IMG/VR virus record: IMGVR_UViG_3300023445_000002
Span: 1 to 26,473 of that record
Direction: 5' to 3' (one strand)
Origin: a virus
DNA length: 26,473 nucleotides
Below, one piece after another: positions 2,710-26,473 of this stretch. The position numbers and the translations under genes are program-made. Under the pieces are notes generated by a model. The model was not told where the DNA came from. It did not search any database and saw only the letters and a program-made list of their open reading frames with translations. How positions within the stretch are numbered: the first letter of the stretch is position 1; the number at the start of each line of letters is the position of its first letter.

Positions 2710-3993
2710 ATGGCACAAATAAAATTATCACAATTACCTTCAAGTGTTGCTCCTAGTTCGAGTGCTGAAGTTTTTGTTGTTGATGGTGGCGTATCCTATA
2801 AAACTAGCATCCTGAATATCATTAAGCAAGTAAGGAATATTGACCCACTTGTTCACATCCCATTCAAACGGCAGGATGATGAAGTTGCATTGAGTGGCAT
2901 GCAGACGTTCACACGCTTAGACACTCCAGACCCAGTTGACCCTACTTTATCGAAAGCAGTAACATATATTGACCCACTAACTAACCTAGTTACTAGAGCG
3001 GCTTTAGGCGCACCACGCTTTGAACGCATGGCAGATGGTGGCACAGGTATATTGTTGGAGGGGGCTAGTACGAATCTTTGCACTAACTCCGAAGTGGGAG
3101 TTAGAGCGCACGCGGTGGCGCGTGCGCTAGGTATTGCCCCTGATGGAACATTTACGGCAGAGAATTTTGTTAAAACGGCAGTAACTAGCGCTATGAATAT
3201 AGGACATTTCACCCTCGGCACACCAGCCGCTGTTGGCACTGTAATGACTGTATCATTATACATGAAACCCATTGGTAATGGTGCTTCCTACGGGATACAA
3301 AGTCCTATGTTTGGGTTTATCAACATGCCAAAACCTGAACTAGACCCTAATGCGGTTTACAACCCTGTTACAGGGTACTATCGTGTACAGGCTCAAGTGA
3401 CTTCCACGGGCAATGTTGGCAACCTGCGAATATATCATAACAGCTTTTCGACTTCCGCAGGGAATGGTATTGACGGAAACTACGTTTGGGGCGCACAAGT
3501 AGAAGCCCTCCCCTTCGCCTCATCATATATCCCCACAACCACTGCGGCGGTTACTAGGGCGGCTGACAAATTGAGTCTTGCTTTATCGGGCAATATGAGT
3601 TTAATGCACAATGTGTCGGTAATTGCTGATTGTGATTTCTTCAACATCGCATCACTTCAATACCAAGGCATATTAGATAGTGGTGGGGGCAACAGGTTTG
3701 TCTTTCATACTTTAGCTAATGGTACATTCCAGAATTATGCGGGACAATCATCATGGGGTGGGTCTATCTCCCCCGACACAGTTACTAGACTGGCTATTTC
3801 AAACGACACTACCAAGCGTAGCTACCAAGACGGGGTATTAGTCACTTCTATCTCAAATCAAAATACATATGAACCAAACAACCCTCTACTAATAGGCAGG
3901 TTTTTCAACAATACATTCCCAATGTACGGTCACATCCGCAACTTCCGCATATACGACCAAGCACTCACTTCAGTAGAAATAGCAGCGGCATAA
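2710..3993 (+). CDS. Tail fibre / receptor-binding protein with C-terminal LamG-like domain
   Basis: 427 residues. The N-terminus (MAQIKLSQLPSSVAPSSSAE...VDGG) is the short virion-anchor type found on many phage fibres ('ikiSqLPaat...e...vvqgG'). The middle 'PRFERMADGGTGILLEGAST' plus NLC is the 'PRfd...g.giLiE.a.TNL' signature that precedes a carbohydrate-binding-like domain. The C-terminal ~115 residues, ending GHIRNFRIYDQALTSVEIA, look like a LamG/concanavalin-type beta-sandwich (Laminin_G_3). GGAG at 2698-2701 sets the ATG. Base composition rises after about 2860 (38% GC in 2761-2820; 52% in 2881-2940; 58% in 3061-3120), which suggests a chimera of a native anchor and an acquired tip. Two abutting perfect palindromes lie in frame at 3083-3128. 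The likely role is host adhesion. Confidence 0.82.
   Translation: MAQIKLSQLPSSVAPSSSAEVFVVDGGVSYKTSILNIIKQVRNIDPLVHIPFKRQDDEVALSGMQTFTRLDTPDPVDPTLSKAVTYIDPLTNLVTRAALGAPRFERMADGGTGILLEGASTNLCTNSEVGVRAHAVARALGIAPDGTFTAENFVKTAVTSAMNIGHFTLGTPAAVGTVMTVSLYMKPIGNGASYGIQSPMFGFINMPKPELDPNAVYNPVTGYYRVQAQVTSTGNVGNLRIYHNSFSTSAGNGIDGNYVWGAQVEALPFASSYIPTTTAAVTRAADKLSLALSGNMSLMHNVSVIADCDFFNIASLQYQGILDSGGGNRFVFHTLANGTFQNYAGQSSWGGSISPDTVTRLAISNDTTKRSYQDGVLVTSISNQNTYEPNNPLLIGRFFNNTFPMYGHIRNFRIYDQALTSVEIAAA
3083..3128. repeat. Two abutting perfect palindromes inside fibre gene
   Basis: First hairpin: CTAACTCC (3083-3090), loop GAAGTG, GGAGTTAG (3097-3104). Second, starting at the next base: AGCGCACGCG (3105-3114), loop GTGG, CGCGTGCGCT (3119-3128). 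Both stems are perfect. They lie between the TNLC and APDGTFTAENF parts of the fibre, a place where related proteins vary. The second stem is 90% G+C in an AT-rich phage. Confidence 0.9.
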
Positions 3994-4002
3994 GGAGACA
4001 CT

Positions 4003-4383
4003 ATGAAAGACTTAATCACATACTCAAAAGACGTAACACTATTGCTTGCAGAAGTGGAAGCTAAGCTACCTGACTATCTCATTAAAGATGAGCAGGATAA
4101 GCCCATAGGCTTTGCTATTACTAAAACACCCACAGTCCGCAAAGGCAATAAAACGCTGTCCATTGTGCGCTGTACAGTCGATGAAGTGGCATTGATTAAG
4201 ACCTTAACTACCATGACTATCCTTTCAGAAGTAGCCATGGGTGGTGACTTGCTCAAAGCAATGACAAAAGCTAAGCGAAAGCTATATGACACTGTACATG
4301 ACCAGACACCACAAACAATCACAATGGAAGATGGCTCAACTCACACTTACACTCCGCCTGCGCTAATAGGAGCGTTTGCATAA
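4003..4383 (+). CDS. Small tail-fibre-associated protein, unknown function
   Basis: 126 residues with no motif I can tie to an activity. It is mixed alpha/beta by appearance, with a charged central part and a C-terminal TMEDGSTHTYTPPALIGAFA tail. The start is clear: AAGGAG at 3992-3997 overlaps the stop of the fibre gene. It ends TAATG, so translation is coupled to the next fibre gene. The location between two fibre-like genes suggests a structural or chaperone role, but this is position only. Proteins of this look occur beside tail fibres in phages and prophages, as far as I recall. Confidence 0.7.
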   Translation: MKDLITYSKDVTLLLAEVEAKLPDYLIKDEQDKPIGFAITKTPTVRKGNKTLSIVRCTVDEVALIKTLTTMTILSEVAMGGDLLKAMTKAKRKLYDTVHDQTPQTITMEDGSTHTYTPPALIGAFA

Positions 4384-5171
4384 TGGCACAGTTAAAGAGT
4401 AGTTCTCAAACAAGGATTGATGAAGGTAATGCCATAGCCACAGCAGCCCTAGCAGCATCAGATGCAGTAGCCGCCGCAGATGCAGTAGCCGCCGCAGATG
4501 CAGCAGTCGAAGTAACAGCAGGGCGCACGAACAGTGTGAGGCGTGCGGATGGTACTTGGTCAGCAAAGGCTAGACGGCTTCCTGATAATTATGCTCTACA
4601 AACATGGGGTGACGATTTAGCTACAGGTGCTTATGATGTTTATCTAACAGTAGCCCAAAACGGATTACCCACGGGTTGGTGGTATATCGAAGTCATGCGG
4701 CATGTTAACGATTTATCTAGTAATCAATATAGATACTTAAGAGCCACCCCACTGACTTCAACACTAGCCGCACAGCCCGTCCATCATTGCAGTGTTAGAG
4801 CTGGTGCATGGTCAGCTTGGACTCCTGTAGGTGATAATCCTCTCACTTGGTACACACCTACGTTTTTGAATAGTTGGGCTGATTTCGGGGGGAATTTGAG
4901 CGCTCGATATACCAAGGATTTAACAAACGGCATAGTGTACATAAAAGGTGCTGTTAAAGGCGGTTCAAACACAGCAATAACATATATGTTTACGCTTCCT
5001 GTTGGTATGCGCCCATCTTCCAATATTCTAACGTCCCAAGTAACATTTGGCGGAAGTGGCAGGGTTGACATATACTCTACAGGTGAAGTGGTGTTTGTTG
5101 CTGCTATTCCTCACACGGGCGACGCATTCTCATATTTATCAATTAGCGCAACGTTCAAGGCGGAGCAGTAA
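4383..5171 (+). CDS. Tail fibre-like protein with Ala-rich repeat stem
   Basis: 262 residues. The N-terminus (about 15-45) is an alanine-rich, probably helical stem (DAVAAADAVAAADAA) encoded by tandem 18-bp repeats. The middle, RLPDNYALQTWGDDLATGAYDVY...GWWYIEVMRH, resembles the pyocin-knob-type domain of phage fibres ('lptGwyyvev..h'). The C-terminal ~110 residues (TWYTPTFLNSWADFGG...TLPVGMRPS) look like a beta-rich fibre tip ('lP.GyRP'). Translation is coupled by TAATG, with AGGAG at 4368-4372. It is probably a second receptor-binding fibre, or the distal part of a fibre assembled with the upstream protein. Confidence 0.78.
   Translation: MAQLKSSSQTRIDEGNAIATAALAASDAVAAADAVAAADAAVEVTAGRTNSVRRADGTWSAKARRLPDNYALQTWGDDLATGAYDVYLTVAQNGLPTGWWYIEVMRHVNDLSSNQYRYLRATPLTSTLAAQPVHHCSVRAGAWSAWTPVGDNPLTWYTPTFLNSWADFGGNLSARYTKDLTNGIVYIKGAVKGGSNTAITYMFTLPVGMRPSSNILTSQVTFGGSGRVDIYSTGEVVFVAAIPHTGDAFSYLSISATFKAEQ
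4461..4496 (+). repeat. Tandem 18-bp repeat encoding DAVAAA
   Basis: Two exact copies (4461-4478 and 4479-4496) of an 18-base unit, followed by the start of a diverging third (GATGCAGCAG from 4497). It encodes the alanine-rich stem of the fibre protein. Exact identity suggests recent slippage or expansion. Confidence 0.93.
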
Positions 5172-21355: not shown

Positions 21356-21775
21356 ATGCCTTTACAATATTCAGTTGCGGTTAGAAACGCACAATTGAAC
21401 GCATGGGAAACCGCAATTGGCGTATCGCCAATTTTACATCTATATGATGGGGTTAACCCAGCAAACTGTGGTTTAGGTGCTACAGCAAATATTATCGCTT
21501 CGGCTACATTGCCTGTTGATTGGTCTGGCGCTGCTGCTGGTGGAGTTAAAGCAATCATCAATTCGCCATTTACGGTTACTGGTGTAGCTGCTGCTGGTGC
21601 TGGTACTGCTGTGTTGGCTTATCGTATTATGGATTCAACTAATACAACTTGTCACGAACAAGGTAGTGTTACTATAACAGGCGGCGGCGGTGATATGACG
21701 CTTGATAATACATCTGTAGCAGACCTACAGGTTATTAGTATCAACACAATGTCGCGTACTTCGGGTAATGCTTAA
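21356..21775 (+). CDS. Small virion protein of a repeated phage family, copy 1
   Basis: 139 residues. It begins MPLQYSVAVRNAQLNAWETA and continues with 'ILHLYDGVNPANC', 'IIASATLPVDW', 'TCHEQGSVTITGGGGDMTLD' and NTSVADLQVISI. This matches a phage family I recognise by pattern ('ar.a.lda....g.s..L.irtG..Pa......g..la...l......a....G......a....aGta...R..ds...t...qG.v....g.dm.ldn..i..Gq.v.v.sf'). It is probably a small structural or decoration protein. Two late promoters upstream and GGAG at 21345-21348 suggest strong late expression. The gene at 21877 is a diverged copy. Confidence 0.75.
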   Translation: MPLQYSVAVRNAQLNAWETAIGVSPILHLYDGVNPANCGLGATANIIASATLPVDWSGAAAGGVKAIINSPFTVTGVAAAGAGTAVLAYRIMDSTNTTCHEQGSVTITGGGGDMTLDNTSVADLQVISINTMSRTSGNA

Positions 21776-21797: not shown

Positions 21798-21805
21798 TAT
21801 AAATA
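21798..21805 (+). promoter_or_regulatory. T4-type late promoter, perfect TATAAATA
   Basis: Exact consensus. The predicted start is near 21811, which lies inside the left arm of the terminator hairpin at 21805-21838. Confidence 0.75.
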
Positions 21806-21838
21806 AGAGGGTGTGGTATTAATTTATCGCACCCTTTT
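21805..21838 (+). terminator. Rho-independent-like terminator interlocked with late promoter
   Basis: The left arm AAGAGGGTG (21805-21813) pairs with CACCCTTTT (21830-21838): nine pairs including one G-U, with a 16-base loop. The 3' arm itself supplies the T-run. It would stop transcripts coming from copy 1. The last base of the late promoter is the first base of the stem. Confidence 0.65.
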
Positions 21839-21876
21839 AGTTATTGTTATTATTGTATATGTGAGGATTGACAAAT

Positions 21877-22266
21877 ATGCCTTTTAGAAAAGCCGACGCG
21901 ACGAGAAACGCCAAACTCCAAGCTTTAGTATCATTGATGGATGGTGGCACTATCGAATGGAGAACAGGGGCTATTCCTGCCACACCTGCTGTAGCTGATT
22001 CAGGTGTTCTTCTTGCAACGAATACCATGGGTGCTACTGCGTTCACAGCGCCCGTAGCAGGCGTTTCAACCTATAATGTAGATACACCAAACAATCAAGT
22101 CGCTATAGGCGATATTGGTCATGCTCGTATCAAGACATCTGGCGGTATTGTTGTTGCTGATGTTGATGTTGGTTTAGTAGGTACTGTAATTATCGTTGAT
22201 AGAATCGCTGTTACCACAGGCGAGAAAGTCAACATCCAGTCTTTTAGTATCACAGAGCCTATGTAA
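21877..22266 (+). CDS. Small virion protein of a repeated phage family, copy 2
   Basis: 129 residues from ATG 21877. GAGG at 21863-21866 supports this start over the in-frame TTG at 21868. The pattern follows the same family as the gene at 21356: 'MPFRKADATRNAKLQALVSL', 'IEWRTGAIPATPAVADSGVL', 'IGDIGHARIKTSGGIVVADV' and a VNIQSFSITEP ending ('GhaRikdsaG..v.d..vg......v....i..G..v.i.sfti.ep'). It is probably virion surface or decoration. The end is coupled by TAATG to a 29-codon ORF. Confidence 0.75.
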   Translation: MPFRKADATRNAKLQALVSLMDGGTIEWRTGAIPATPAVADSGVLLATNTMGATAFTAPVAGVSTYNVDTPNNQVAIGDIGHARIKTSGGIVVADVDVGLVGTVIIVDRIAVTTGEKVNIQSFSITEPM

Positions 22267-22355
22267 TGAATGAATCTGATATTCTTAACCACCCTAACTT
22301 TAAACAACTAAAAACTAAACGAATTTTAGTTAATACTTTTGCGGTGACATTATGA
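22266..22355 (+). CDS. 29-residue micro-ORF coupled at both ends
   Basis: The ATG overlaps the stop of the virion protein (TAATG), and its TGA (22353-22355) overlaps the ATG of the sulfotransferase gene (ATGA). The product starts MNESDILNHPNFKQLKTKR and ends ILVNTFAVTL. The sequence fills the whole gap without waste, typical of phage coupling. It may be a real small protein, or a translated leader that carries ribosomes to the sulfotransferase start, which has only a weak Shine-Dalgarno (GGTG). No family is recognised. Confidence 0.5.
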   Translation: MNESDILNHPNFKQLKTKRILVNTFAVTL

Positions 22356-23878
22356 GTGAAGTATCGCTTCAACCTTCGGATGAAGTCCATGTAGAAAGTG
22401 CTGATATGTACCTAGAGCAAAATGAGTTCTTGGCTGCGGAACAGGGTTATAAAATAGCCTTGGGTATGAACCCCGTAAATAAGGATGCACTTTTGGGCTT
22501 GGCACACATTGCTAGTTTGGGCGGACACCCTTCTGCACTTCTTGAATATGCTGATATGCTTCTTGAACATCATTCTGATGACCCTTTTGTGGTTGCATCT
22601 GTTGCAAACATCAAAGAAGATACAACATTGTTTGCAAGGGCTTACTCAATGAACCCTTTGGATGCGCATATATCTATGCTTTATGCAAAGAACCTGATTA
22701 AAAATAATAACGTAATTGATGCGGCTCTTGTATTGAAGGCGATTACCTGCGGAAAAAACTTAGAGATTAAATTAGCAGTTTCGGAACTACTCATTGAGTG
22801 TTCGGAAGTTGAATTATCTTGTGTATATTTGGAGGACATCCTAAAAGAACGTCCTGATTCATGGTTGGCTTATTGTCATGCCCTTCCTCTATTTGACCAC
22901 AAGAAATCAAAAGCATGTGACCCTGAAAAGGTCAAAGAAATTATTTCAAATTTATCCACACCTGCCGATAAGGTTGCCTTACTGCAAAATGGTTTGGGTA
23001 AGTTGTTAGAGAAACGTGGTAATCATAAAGAATCGTGGGAAGCGTATCAGGCATCTAATGATATTGTGTCAAAGATTAGGTACAACTATGCTGATTATGC
23101 GGCGGTAGAAAAACGATACGAAGAACAGTTCACTAAGGATTTCTTTGATGGTATTCCTGAATCAAAAGAAAGTCCTTTTATATTTGTGTTTGGTATGCCT
23201 AGAAGCGGCACAACATTAACAGAACAAATCTTAGGAAAACATAGTGACATTACTGCTTTGGGTGAGTTGATGGCTGTGCCTGATTCAGCTAAAGATTTTA
23301 GTGTCCTATTTTCAAGCGGTTCTAATCTACCGAACAACCCTGATGAATTGGCAGATGAATATTTGGCGGAACGTGTTAGGACGTTTGATACGCGATATTG
23401 TGTTGATAAAATGCCTTCCAACTATAAGTTTATACCTCTGATTTATGCAATGTTCCCAACAGCTAAATTTGTGTATTGTAAACGTAATGCGTTGGATAAT
23501 TGTTTTTCTTGTCTCACAACATTGTTTGCTAAAAGGCATGATTACTCTTTCGACCAAGTTGAAATGGGTAAAGAATATAATCATCATATGCGATTGATGG
23601 AGTTATGGAACGACATCTTACCGTCGGGGACTATTCATCAAGTCGATTATGAGGATATGGTTAAAGACCAAGAAGGCACAACCAAAGAATTGTTGGATTA
23701 TATTGGATTAGATTATCAGGTTGGATGTAAGGACTTTCATACATTGAAACGTAATGTTAAGACTGCATCGCTTGCCCAAGTAGTTAAGCCTATGTACACC
23801 ACAAGTGTTAGTAGAGCAACACCTTATTTGGAGAATTTAGAACCGCTAATACAGGAGCTTCAAGATGGCAGTAAGTAG
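22352..23878 (+). CDS. TPR-sulfotransferase fusion protein
   Basis: 508 residues. The N-terminal ~240 look like tetratricopeptide repeats (FLAAEQGYKIALGMNPVNKD at 26-45; LGKLLEKRGNHKESWEAYQA at 215-234). The C-terminal ~230 are a Sulfotransfer_3-type domain: the 5'-phosphosulfate loop FGMPRSGTT (280-288), a GEL with candidate catalytic-base glutamate 305, VDKMPSNY (351-358), and the 3'-phosphate site YCKRNALDNCFS (375-386, arginine 378 and serine 386). Such enzymes move sulfate from PAPS to a hydroxyl or tyrosine; the GE and DKMP features recall tyrosylprotein sulfotransferases. All key residues seem present, so activity is likely. It sits between structural genes. The target is unknown: virion protein, host surface sugar or metabolite. 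Confidence 0.85.
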   Translation: MSEVSLQPSDEVHVESADMYLEQNEFLAAEQGYKIALGMNPVNKDALLGLAHIASLGGHPSALLEYADMLLEHHSDDPFVVASVANIKEDTTLFARAYSMNPLDAHISMLYAKNLIKNNNVIDAALVLKAITCGKNLEIKLAVSELLIECSEVELSCVYLEDILKERPDSWLAYCHALPLFDHKKSKACDPEKVKEIISNLSTPADKVALLQNGLGKLLEKRGNHKESWEAYQASNDIVSKIRYNYADYAAVEKRYEEQFTKDFFDGIPESKESPFIFVFGMPRSGTTLTEQILGKHSDITALGELMAVPDSAKDFSVLFSSGSNLPNNPDELADEYLAERVRTFDTRYCVDKMPSNYKFIPLIYAMFPTAKFVYCKRNALDNCFSCLTTLFAKRHDYSFDQVEMGKEYNHHMRLMELWNDILPSGTIHQVDYEDMVKDQEGTTKELLDYIGLDYQVGCKDFHTLKRNVKTASLAQVVKPMYTTSVSRATPYLENLEPLIQELQDGSK

Positions 23879-24215
23879 ATTCAGAGATAGGGGTGAAGTT
23901 CGTGTAGCGTATCCATTGGCATCATTGTTTGATGATTTGATTGTCTATGTACAAAACTCCACGTTAGAAGGCGCAAAGTCTGTAACAGTCACTAAGCTTG
24001 AATTAGAAAATTTTGTTGTTTCTGCAAAAAGGTATGCTTTAGGTACACCAAGAGGAACATCCGACAGATATGACGTGTTCTCTATTTTATTTAAAGAGAT
24101 AGATAAATGCACCAATGGTAAACCCCAGAATGGTGTTAGTAGTGCTATCAACACATGGGCGCTAGACGAACGAGAGGTGTTGTACATGTTTAGTTCTTAT
24201 TACGGAGGTTCATAA
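23865..24215 (+). CDS. Small protein after sulfotransferase, unknown function
   Basis: 116 residues, not recognised. It has no membrane segment or signal; the composition is mixed, with a polar middle (KRYALGTPRGTSDRYDVFSI) and a tyrosine/glycine-rich end (YMFSSYYGGS). AGGAG at 23853-23857 serves the ATG, which lies 14 bases inside the sulfotransferase gene. It ends TAATG into the next structural gene. The overlap suggests that it is made with the sulfotransferase; partner or substrate status is only a possibility. Confidence 0.68.
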   Translation: MAVSRFRDRGEVRVAYPLASLFDDLIVYVQNSTLEGAKSVTVTKLELENFVVSAKRYALGTPRGTSDRYDVFSILFKEIDKCTNGKPQNGVSSAINTWALDEREVLYMFSSYYGGS

Positions 24216-25567
24216 TGTCTAAGTATTTTGGAATTGTAGGTGTAGCTGCAGTTACATTGATGCCAGGGTATGTAACCCCAGGCTCTGCGGCTAATAAAGC
24301 AGCAAATACAGCATTGACTAAAAATGCGGCATGGAAAGACCATTTGATTCTTGCACCTGTACAGAACACGGCATTGACAGCCCCATCTAGTACTGCTGGG
24401 GGTATGGAGATAGCATCCGTCACGCAACTTATGAATGCTGTGACTAGCCAAACAACTTTTGCGTCTATCGGCTCATTCTGCTTAGGTGCTGCTTACACTA
24501 AGGCAACCAAGGTACGGATTGATAAATTTCGCGGTTCTCTTAAACGCTCCACTACTCACAAGTATTTTGTAGATGCGTATTCTGTTAATGGTGCAGGTAC
24601 AGCAAGTACAAGGGTTGCTTCGGTTCAACTAGGTACTTATGCTGGCTTTGCAGGTGGTTGGTTCAACCCTTCTGCAACATTTACAACAGGTGCAAGTAAA
24701 ACCGTTACTGTTCCTGCTGGTGGGCATTTAGTTATGCGTGCTGTTGGTAATGGTGGGACATCCTCGGGTATTAAATTAACCACAGGTTGGAAGGCAGGCG
24801 CTATATCATCGGCTTTCATTCTAATTACAACAGAGTCTCCTGCCATACCAGTCGCTAGTGTCGAGAACAGAGAAAGATTTAATGACTCTACGGGTAACCC
24901 ATTACCAGATGGCACTAAGGTTTATGAGTATGATGCTTCGACTATGGCATATACAGGTATAGTTGGTTTGATTGGTGGTGCTGCTGTTGGTTCTGGTGCT
25001 GCAGAAGTTGGTGTATTGCCTGCCGCAGTGGGTGTGGGGGAAGTAGTATTCACTCGCGTCAATGCGGATGTTGGCGAATACTTCTATATTATCCCTGACC
25101 CAGCATCTGGGAATGTTTGGACATTGAATAGCTTGACTGCACTAGGCGCTAAAATTAATCCGTCTAGTTTGGCTAAATTGGTAGCTGAATGTACAACTGC
25201 AGGAACAACGGGTGCAACAGAACCTTTATGGGATACATTATCTTTGGTTAAAGGGTCTACCGTCGTTGATGGTACGGCTACTTGGACTATGGTTGAAGTT
25301 GAAACTCTTTGTACTGGTGCGGTGACAGGATACCAATTAGGTCATTGGTCTGCTAATATGGCAGGTGTTATTTCCGCCGCTGGACCGCCAGTCGTATCTG
25401 CAACGATTGTAGCCCCATCTGATGCAACCGCAAATCAACATGCGGTTTGTACGACGGCAGGTGTTGCAGGTGCAATAGCGCCAATTTGGACAGGTTTAGC
25501 TGTAGGGGCAACTGTAGTCGATGGTACTATAACTTGGACTATCACTGCTGATGCGGTATACGACTAA
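24215..25567 (+). CDS. Virion surface/fibre-like protein with two TTAGTTG modules
   Basis: 450 residues, rich in alanine, glycine and threonine. Two copies of a well-known phage fibre module ('.a.TaGtTGatePlW....g.tv.DGtvtWt') are visible at about 325-360 (CTTAGTTGATEPLW ... VDGTATWT) and 410-444 (CTTAGVAGAIAPIW ... VDGTITWT). The N-terminal ~200 residues are beta-rich and resemble no family I can name; the start FGIVGVAAVTLMPGYV is hydrophobic but lacks a convincing signal peptide. GGAGG lies just before the TAATG junction. It is probably exposed on the virion, and its tyrosines and serines could be modified by the nearby enzyme (speculation). Confidence 0.72.
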   Translation: MSKYFGIVGVAAVTLMPGYVTPGSAANKAANTALTKNAAWKDHLILAPVQNTALTAPSSTAGGMEIASVTQLMNAVTSQTTFASIGSFCLGAAYTKATKVRIDKFRGSLKRSTTHKYFVDAYSVNGAGTASTRVASVQLGTYAGFAGGWFNPSATFTTGASKTVTVPAGGHLVMRAVGNGGTSSGIKLTTGWKAGAISSAFILITTESPAIPVASVENRERFNDSTGNPLPDGTKVYEYDASTMAYTGIVGLIGGAAVGSGAAEVGVLPAAVGVGEVVFTRVNADVGEYFYIIPDPASGNVWTLNSLTALGAKINPSSLAKLVAECTTAGTTGATEPLWDTLSLVKGSTVVDGTATWTMVEVETLCTGAVTGYQLGHWSANMAGVISAAGPPVVSATIVAPSDATANQHAVCTTAGVAGAIAPIWTGLAVGATVVDGTITWTITADAVYD

Positions 25568-25986
25568 TGGCAACTTGGTTTGGTCGTAATGTAGTTAATG
25601 TTGGCGGTGGTTGGTCTACAGCCAACCAAACTACTCAAGCTATTACTGGACCAGTGGCTACTGTTGCATATACAGAGCCACCCGAAACGGTAGCAGCTTC
25701 GGTGTTGGTACAGAAAGATTTGATAACTCATGTATTCAAGGATACTGCAGGGAACGTTCTGTCTGATGGAATCAATGTTGTGGCTTTTATTGCCAGCACC
25801 ATGGCTAATGCAAACCCTACTATAGCAGGTAGTGGTTTGGTTGGTAATGTGAATGTTGGTGTTGGAGAAGTGCAGATAATTGTTGCAGATTCATCTAGTA
25901 TTATATTGATTCCTGACCATGCTCATGCTTCTTTTCCGACTGGCGAAGTTGGTCATAGTCCACCTATCGTTCCTGCTGTAGTGTAA
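25567..25986 (+). CDS. Small beta-rich virion-like protein
   Basis: 139 residues. It begins MATWFGRNVVNVGGGWSTAN and continues beta-rich; the centre HVFKDTAGNVLSDGINVVAF looks like one Ig-like or bacterial beta-sandwich domain. The first gene of this group (24215) contains a comparable stretch (RERFNDSTGNPLPDGTKVYE), so the two may share a domain. TAATG couples it to the upstream gene. The role is unknown, probably structural. Confidence 0.65.
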   Translation: MATWFGRNVVNVGGGWSTANQTTQAITGPVATVAYTEPPETVAASVLVQKDLITHVFKDTAGNVLSDGINVVAFIASTMANANPTIAGSGLVGNVNVGVGEVQIIVADSSSIILIPDHAHASFPTGEVGHSPPIVPAVV

Positions 25987-25992
25987 TATACC

Positions 25993-26473
25993 ATGGCTAT
26001 TAGTTTTACTAAAAATACAGGCAGTGCAGCATCATCAACTACATTTGACCCTACTACTAATACAGCGTCAGGTGTTGTAAATGGTGTTGTTGATAGTGTT
26101 CAAGACTCACAGACAAGCCTATCCATTGGTGTTGCTATTGTATTGGGAAGTATTGTTGCTTCTCAAGTTGGCGATATTACTTCGTCCGAAGCATCTAACG
26201 CAGTCAATGCATCAATAACAAGCGTCCAAGTTGATGATAATACTTCGTCAACTGTAGGTAATGTTCATGTTGGTGTTAATTCATCTTCCCAACAATCAAA
26301 TAATACCTCAAGTATTGTTGGTGTTTCTCTAGGGAATGGCTTAATAGCGTCTCTACGGCAAAGTGATTCAGGTAGCCTACAAGCAACCATATCAAGCAAT
26401 ATTGCTATTGATTCTGTTCAGGGTAATGATGTAACCACAGAGGGTGGTGTTGTCATCATCAATAGTAGCATCA
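25993..26473 (+). CDS. Ser/Asn/Val-rich repetitive protein, start of gene (3'-truncated)
   Basis: This frame opens with ATG at 25993 (context ccATGGCT, as for several genes here) and stays open for 160 codons to the right edge. The product starts MAISFTKNTGSAASSTTFDP. It then has imperfect short repeats of alternating hydrophobic/polar type (GVVDSVQDSQTSLSIGVAIV, VDDNTSSTVGNVHVGV, NNTSSIVGVSLG, SSNIAIDSVQG) that suggest a beta-solenoid or stacked beta-sheet. There are no cysteines or charged clusters. It probably encodes a virion surface or fibre protein like its neighbours. The true length is unknown. Confidence 0.68.
   Translation, partial: MAISFTKNTGSAASSTTFDPTTNTASGVVNGVVDSVQDSQTSLSIGVAIVLGSIVASQVGDITSSEASNAVNASITSVQVDDNTSSTVGNVHVGVNSSSQQSNNTSSIVGVSLGNGLIASLRQSDSGSLQATISSNIAIDSVQGNDVTTEGGVVIINSSI

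Follow-up and report, generated by a model that had tools for sequence, protein, structure and literature searches.

The 508-amino-acid protein encoded at positions 22352-23878 of the window (by which we mean the whole 26,473-base IMG/VR phage record, probably a fragment) has the fold and active site of a PAPS-dependent sulfotransferase, is under purifying selection and belongs to a cassette of overlapping genes that also encodes surface-type proteins. Since the gene is locked in a block with proteins of the particle surface, the enzyme probably sulfates the virus particle, and we give a probability of roughly 0.52 to the reading that it is a PAPS-dependent protein sulfotransferase acting on surface or fibre proteins of the phage itself. 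The enzyme family is known; its conserved phage setting is new. Phage sulfotransferases have already been reported, with their function called unclear (PMC10580990). In the literature searched, which left out most subscription journals, we found no report of a phage sulfating its own particle and none joining sulfotransferases with phage tail fibres.

Gene setting in the window

The window encodes baseplate wedge proteins matching phrog_219, phrog_438 and phrog_17744, which identifies it as a contractile-tail contig, and a 1701-aa protein with numerous relatives in named phages. Lysis and tail-associated genes lie downstream of these. The sulfotransferase is part of a dense plus-strand unit, listed here together with the gene upstream of it:

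21356-21775, +: virion structural protein, 139 aa (phrog_3758, E = 5e-17), 68-72% identical to the copies in the cassettes of relatives
21804-21839, +: intrinsic-terminator-like hairpin with a 15-pair stem and a T-rich tail, between the upstream gene and the sulfotransferase unit
21868-22266, +: second phrog_3758-type virion structural protein (E = 5e-15), 132 aa from a TTG start or 129 aa from the in-frame ATG at 21877
22266-22355, +: 29-aa micro-ORF joining the structural gene to the sulfotransferase gene, specific to the window
22352-23878, +: TPR-sulfotransferase, 508 aa, with TPRs at residues ~10-266 and the sulfotransferase domain at 275-508
23865-24215, +: 116-aa protein whose ATG start codon lies within the sulfotransferase gene
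24215-25567, +: 450-aa beta-rich protein of surface/decoration type, candidate acceptor (phrog_20658, head decoration; weak match, E = 1.5e-10)
25567-25986, +: small protein encoded after the decoration gene, with one Tyr among its 139 residues
25993-26473, +: start of a Ser/Thr-rich, stalk-like repeat protein that is truncated where the contig stops

The hairpin comes from a consensus scan only, which found 7 such structures in the region against 4.9 expected. The stop of the 116-aa gene overlaps the start of the decoration gene. A virion location for the 450-aa decoration protein is proposed from its weak PHROG similarity; an AlphaFold model of this protein was unusable (pLDDT 34), and an alignment of its homologues showed that Y94 and Y122 are invariant. 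The 160 residues present of the repeat protein are 31% Ser plus Thr and contain no Tyr.

Domains, active site and predicted fold of the enzyme

The sulfotransferase gene is a single uninterrupted ATG-to-stop frame. A Pfam search clearly matched residues 275-456 of its product to Sulfotransfer_3 (PF13469), with an E-value of 4.9e-39, a score of 135 bits against a cut-off of 27 and coverage of positions 1-215 of the 216-position profile. Sulfotransfer_1 also matched (E = 1.6e-11), as did TPR_16 at residues 17-77 (E = 3.1e-7), while the PHROG profile search yielded no family describing the protein (best E = 0.002). The preliminary description, made from the sequence alone, had reported an apparently intact enzyme with legible PAPS-binding features, namely the FGMPRSGTT loop, R378 and S386 of the 3'-phosphate site and the GE pair ending at E305. 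All of these lie at the positions given for them. Across 51 phage and bacterial homologues P283-R284-S285-G286, E305, K353, N357, R378, Y433, E434 and S473 do not vary, and S386 is kept in 47 of the 51. Taken together, the complete set of PAPS and catalytic residues, the profile match and the modelled fold confirm, as far as such comparisons reach, that the product is an intact PAPS sulfotransferase, far beyond a chance match, and we expect it to be catalytically active.

The AlphaFold2 model of the protein is confident (mean pLDDT 91.7). In a Foldseek comparison with the PDB its best matches were human TPST1 and TPST2 with PAP bound, headed by 5wrj_C, which also holds a gastrin peptide (TM-score 0.69 normalised by target, E = 5e-8). 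The nearest solved fold is that of a protein-tyrosine sulfotransferase in complex with PAP and peptide, which bears out the resemblance to TPSTs suggested initially and is in keeping with a PAPS pocket. Identity to the TPSTs is ~20%, the PRSGTT loop, the position of the Glu base and a Lys being held in common. E305 aligns (phmmer) with the second Glu of the TPST GEE motif, which we take to be the catalytic base. R101 and R105 of TPST, presumably the two arginines in contact with acidic peptide residues, are not kept; the window enzyme has M307 and D311 at these positions, which are variable across the family. A further difference is found at the N-terminus: TPST carries a Golgi type II membrane anchor, whereas the model of the window enzyme has a TPR domain there.

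After the TPSTs, the Foldseek matches were TPR proteins that align with the TPR half, including OGT and SPINDLY. In these enzymes a TPR superhelix feeds protein to a transferase domain, an arrangement that the window enzyme resembles, but they move sugar rather than sulfate, and their catalytic domain is unrelated to that of the window enzyme. Judged from the model, the TPR half thus appears to be of the protein-binding kind, in agreement with the docking role first suggested for it. The phage sulfotransferases of phrog_27463 and of phage S-SCSM1 share the sulfotransferase fold but do not have a TPR half; that of S-SCSM1 is ~22% identical to the window enzyme, and its gene lies among replication genes.

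Conservation of the cassette in related phages

A single-sequence scan of IMG/VR found no relatives; those described here came from an alignment-based scan. Six further viral records encode a sulfotransferase of the window's phage clade, with identities to the window enzyme of 61-65% (L012, L013, L014, L015) or 31-37% (L016, L017). Among named phages there was no full-length homologue of the sulfotransferase and none of the decoration protein. In a tree of 92 sulfotransferase domains, the window enzyme and those of L012, L013, L014, L016 and L017 formed a phage clade of their own (98*). The dN/dS ratio between the close relatives L012 and L013 is 0.04; the sulfotransferase is under strong purifying selection and is evolutionarily maintained.

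The neighbourhood is conserved along with the enzyme. In L012-L014 and L016 the order is a phrog_3758-type gene, the sulfotransferase, a gene for 105-120 aa, the decoration gene and a long repeat protein, the last being preceded by a short gene in L012-L014. In all five uncut relatives (L012, L013, L014, L016 and L017) the sulfotransferase gene overlaps the 105-120-aa gene, with the decoration gene directly next, and in four of the five the block continues with the long Ser/Thr-rich repeat protein; overlap with the next gene was seen at each of the six loci inspected. Every complete relative has a 105-120-aa protein in the place of the 116-aa one, the similarity being weak in L016 and L017. 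L017 begins with the sulfotransferase, followed by 113-aa and 218-aa proteins that resemble those of the window (the small one weakly), and the L015 record breaks off inside the sulfotransferase gene. An F5/8 type C domain occurs in the 1370-aa repeat protein of L012, which fits a surface fibre. The setting among virion surface genes that had been described for the window is therefore kept in the phage clade down to 31-37% identity. The coupling described for the gene is conserved in part: the overlap with the 116-aa gene recurs, while the micro-ORF is missing from L012-L014; there the sulfotransferase start is overlapped directly by the upstream structural gene, whose product in L012 and L013 is 30% identical to that of 21868-22266 in the window. 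We thus do not count the micro-ORF as a conserved part of the block.

Used as queries against IMG/VR, the 116-aa protein and the decoration protein each matched only sulfotransferase-bearing loci, and broader searches for the cassette gave no additional members. The cassette is known here from few phages, some five distinct ones besides the window, and every record is a fragment. These phages differ in their surrounding genes. Siphovirus-type portal, tail tube and tape measure proteins are encoded in the L012 record, and its capsid protein is 51-58% identical to those of Stenotrophomonas and Vibrio siphoviruses; tape measure and capsid-type genes matching these are found in the L014 record. 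The window's baseplate genes were not found in the L012 and L014 records, both fragments. Moreover, the window has an endolysin gene upstream of the block, and L012 and L014 have it downstream. Since both tail types carry the block, with the endolysin on opposite sides, the block is preserved as a unit in differing surroundings. The genes 2710-3993, 4003-4383 and 4383-5171, towards the opposite end of the window, match L013 as well, which makes it unlikely that the window was assembled as a chimera.

The remaining phage homologues (L018, L019, L022, L026, L027-L029 and L031) belong to separate lineages in the tree, some of them in other contexts: the genes of L019, L022 and L027-L029 sit after glycine-rich tail-fibre-like genes, and that of L026 is near terminase-like and portal-like genes, as read by eye. 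In a second phage lineage, with L019, L022 and L028, a short sulfotransferase follows a conserved gene for 394-398 aa (phrog_1458/phrog_36869 in L019) near the glycine-rich tail-fibre-like genes. A match assigned to cyanophage AS-1 (L008, DQ115829.1, 'contig_22') was left out as a phage relative because it looks like a bacterial fragment: this GC-rich piece, apparently contamination, has a sulfotransferase frame open at the record end beside a 2OG-oxygenase-like frame.

Bacterial TPR-sulfotransferases and autotransporters

Homologues on plasmids and in bacterial genomes are TPR-sulfotransferases, mostly from Proteobacteria with a few from elsewhere, of the kind annotated as 'tetratricopeptide repeat-containing sulfotransferase family protein'. 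They share the domain architecture and active site of the window enzyme, with identities of up to ~40% over the catalytic part, but they are encoded by hosts and in many cases have additional TPRs and lie close to autotransporters, whereas the phage members form their own clade. The literature searched (without most subscription journals) gave no experimental function for these enzymes and no paper that joins them with autotransporters. Of nine bacterial plasmid loci inspected, three have an autotransporter beside or near the gene, and in a fourth the gene for a giant protein with cadherin domains precedes TolC/ABC secretion genes. Among 77 genome loci, 16 have an autotransporter barrel within three genes of the TPR-sulfotransferase, compared to none of 527 genes further away (Fisher 1e-6); the autotransporter profile was seeded from near genes, and all four of its non-seed matches also lie within three genes. 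Ruegeria is over-represented, which leaves ~9 separate lineages by tree. Pfam confirmed the barrel in all five autotransporters tested.

Several bacterial loci encode, alongside, an extra TPR protein with a weak GT9 match (over the cut-off in L051 and L052), so that glycan sulfation is possible in the bacterial case. Operon-like sets of an autotransporter adhesin, a TPR-sulfotransferase and a TPR/weak-GT9 protein occur among the 79 bacterial loci L042-L120, for example at L051:5414-12383 and L089:1793-12828, and look like an undescribed surface-protein modification system. L057, L066 and L101 encode double TPR-sulfotransferases of ~1700 aa with two catalytic domains per chain. A suspected sulfotransferase-glycosyltransferase fusion in L010 was not borne out by Pfam, and a plasmid protein labelled 'glycosyl transferase family 8' beside an Enterobacter gene turned out to contain TPRs only.

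Proposed mechanism and alternative explanations

We propose that the TPR superhelix would bind a newly made, still extended virion surface protein translated from the same mRNA, the likeliest acceptor being the decoration protein (24215-25567) or the repeat fibre starting at 25993. The C-terminal domain would then sulfate the acceptor on hydroxyl side chains, with host PAPS as the donor, before or during assembly and before the particle exits the cell, and the sulfated surface may alter particle charge, adsorption or stability. Activity, acceptor and benefit are inferred here. The evidence does not require tyrosine to be the acceptor; for the repeat protein tyrosine is not favoured, since the TPST arginines are not kept and the part present has no Tyr. 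Should this be confirmed, phages would modify their own particles by sulfation as well as by glycosylation, with effects on adsorption, particle charge and the evolution of host range. The role is directly testable, because the gene order of the cassette fixes specific candidate acceptors.

Sulfation of a glycan instead, whether the sugars of a glycosylated surface protein or lipopolysaccharide or capsule of the host, would alter receptor use and could serve superinfection exclusion or masking. Many Sulfotransfer_3 enzymes act on sugars, and the GT9-like TPR proteins of the bacterial loci point the same way. We nevertheless consider this explanation doubtful: the gene lies within a structural cassette and the TPR half is of the protein-binding kind, and the absence of GT1, GT2 and GT9 from the eight phage records searched counts mildly against it, these records being fragments.

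The enzyme might also modify a host protein or small molecule during infection, in a metabolic or regulatory role, with the structural operon providing only late expression. Phage sulfotransferases have been listed among auxiliary metabolic genes (PMC8290583), and they occur in varied contexts, such as the replication region of S-SCSM1; non-structural locations of this kind (L026, S-SCSM1) also count against sulfation of the particle. The window enzyme is of a host-type family, yet its gene belongs to a phage clade and a structural cassette, and its linkage to the overlapping 105-120-aa gene and the decoration gene is kept to ~31-37% identity and across tail types, which makes this explanation rather improbable. 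It is very hard to see the gene as passenger host DNA, intact through recent arrival and functionless for the phage: the family is widespread in Proteobacteria, but the distinct phage clade, the dN/dS of 0.04, the active site kept throughout and the gene order common to several phages already contradict such an origin. Modification of the phage's own surface proteins hence remains our preferred reading.

A second sulfotransferase and a possible PAPS supply

The L012, L014 and L015 records encode a second sulfotransferase, of ~270 aa and devoid of TPRs (phrog_27463), directly after a protein of ~1060 aa with YadA head repeats (weak YadA match); in L014 a 106-aa gene lies between the two. As the second enzyme adjoins a YadA-like fibre, two different sulfotransferases are each found beside a surface-type gene. 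We tentatively suggest, at somewhat less than even odds, that the block is a horizontally mobile, self-contained cassette whose dedicated TPR-sulfotransferase acts on the decoration or fibre protein of the particle, that in phages with two enzymes each serves a different surface protein, and that bacterial TPR-sulfotransferases act likewise on autotransporter adhesins, the whole constituting a general system of surface-protein sulfation. The bacterial link to autotransporters would in that case suggest a wider, unrecognised adhesin-sulfating system.

The replication region of the L014 record, from a phage with two sulfotransferases, encodes a 126-aa APS-kinase-like protein (L121:1396-1776, minus strand; Pfam E = 1.6e-10), which might raise the supply of PAPS. 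The gene was seen in this record only and was not found in the L012 record, though the neighbouring helicase is present there, so we leave it out of the general account. A DnaB-like helicase in the L012 record (L126:1-2202) has an intein-like insert in its P-loop, which its homologue in L121 does not have.
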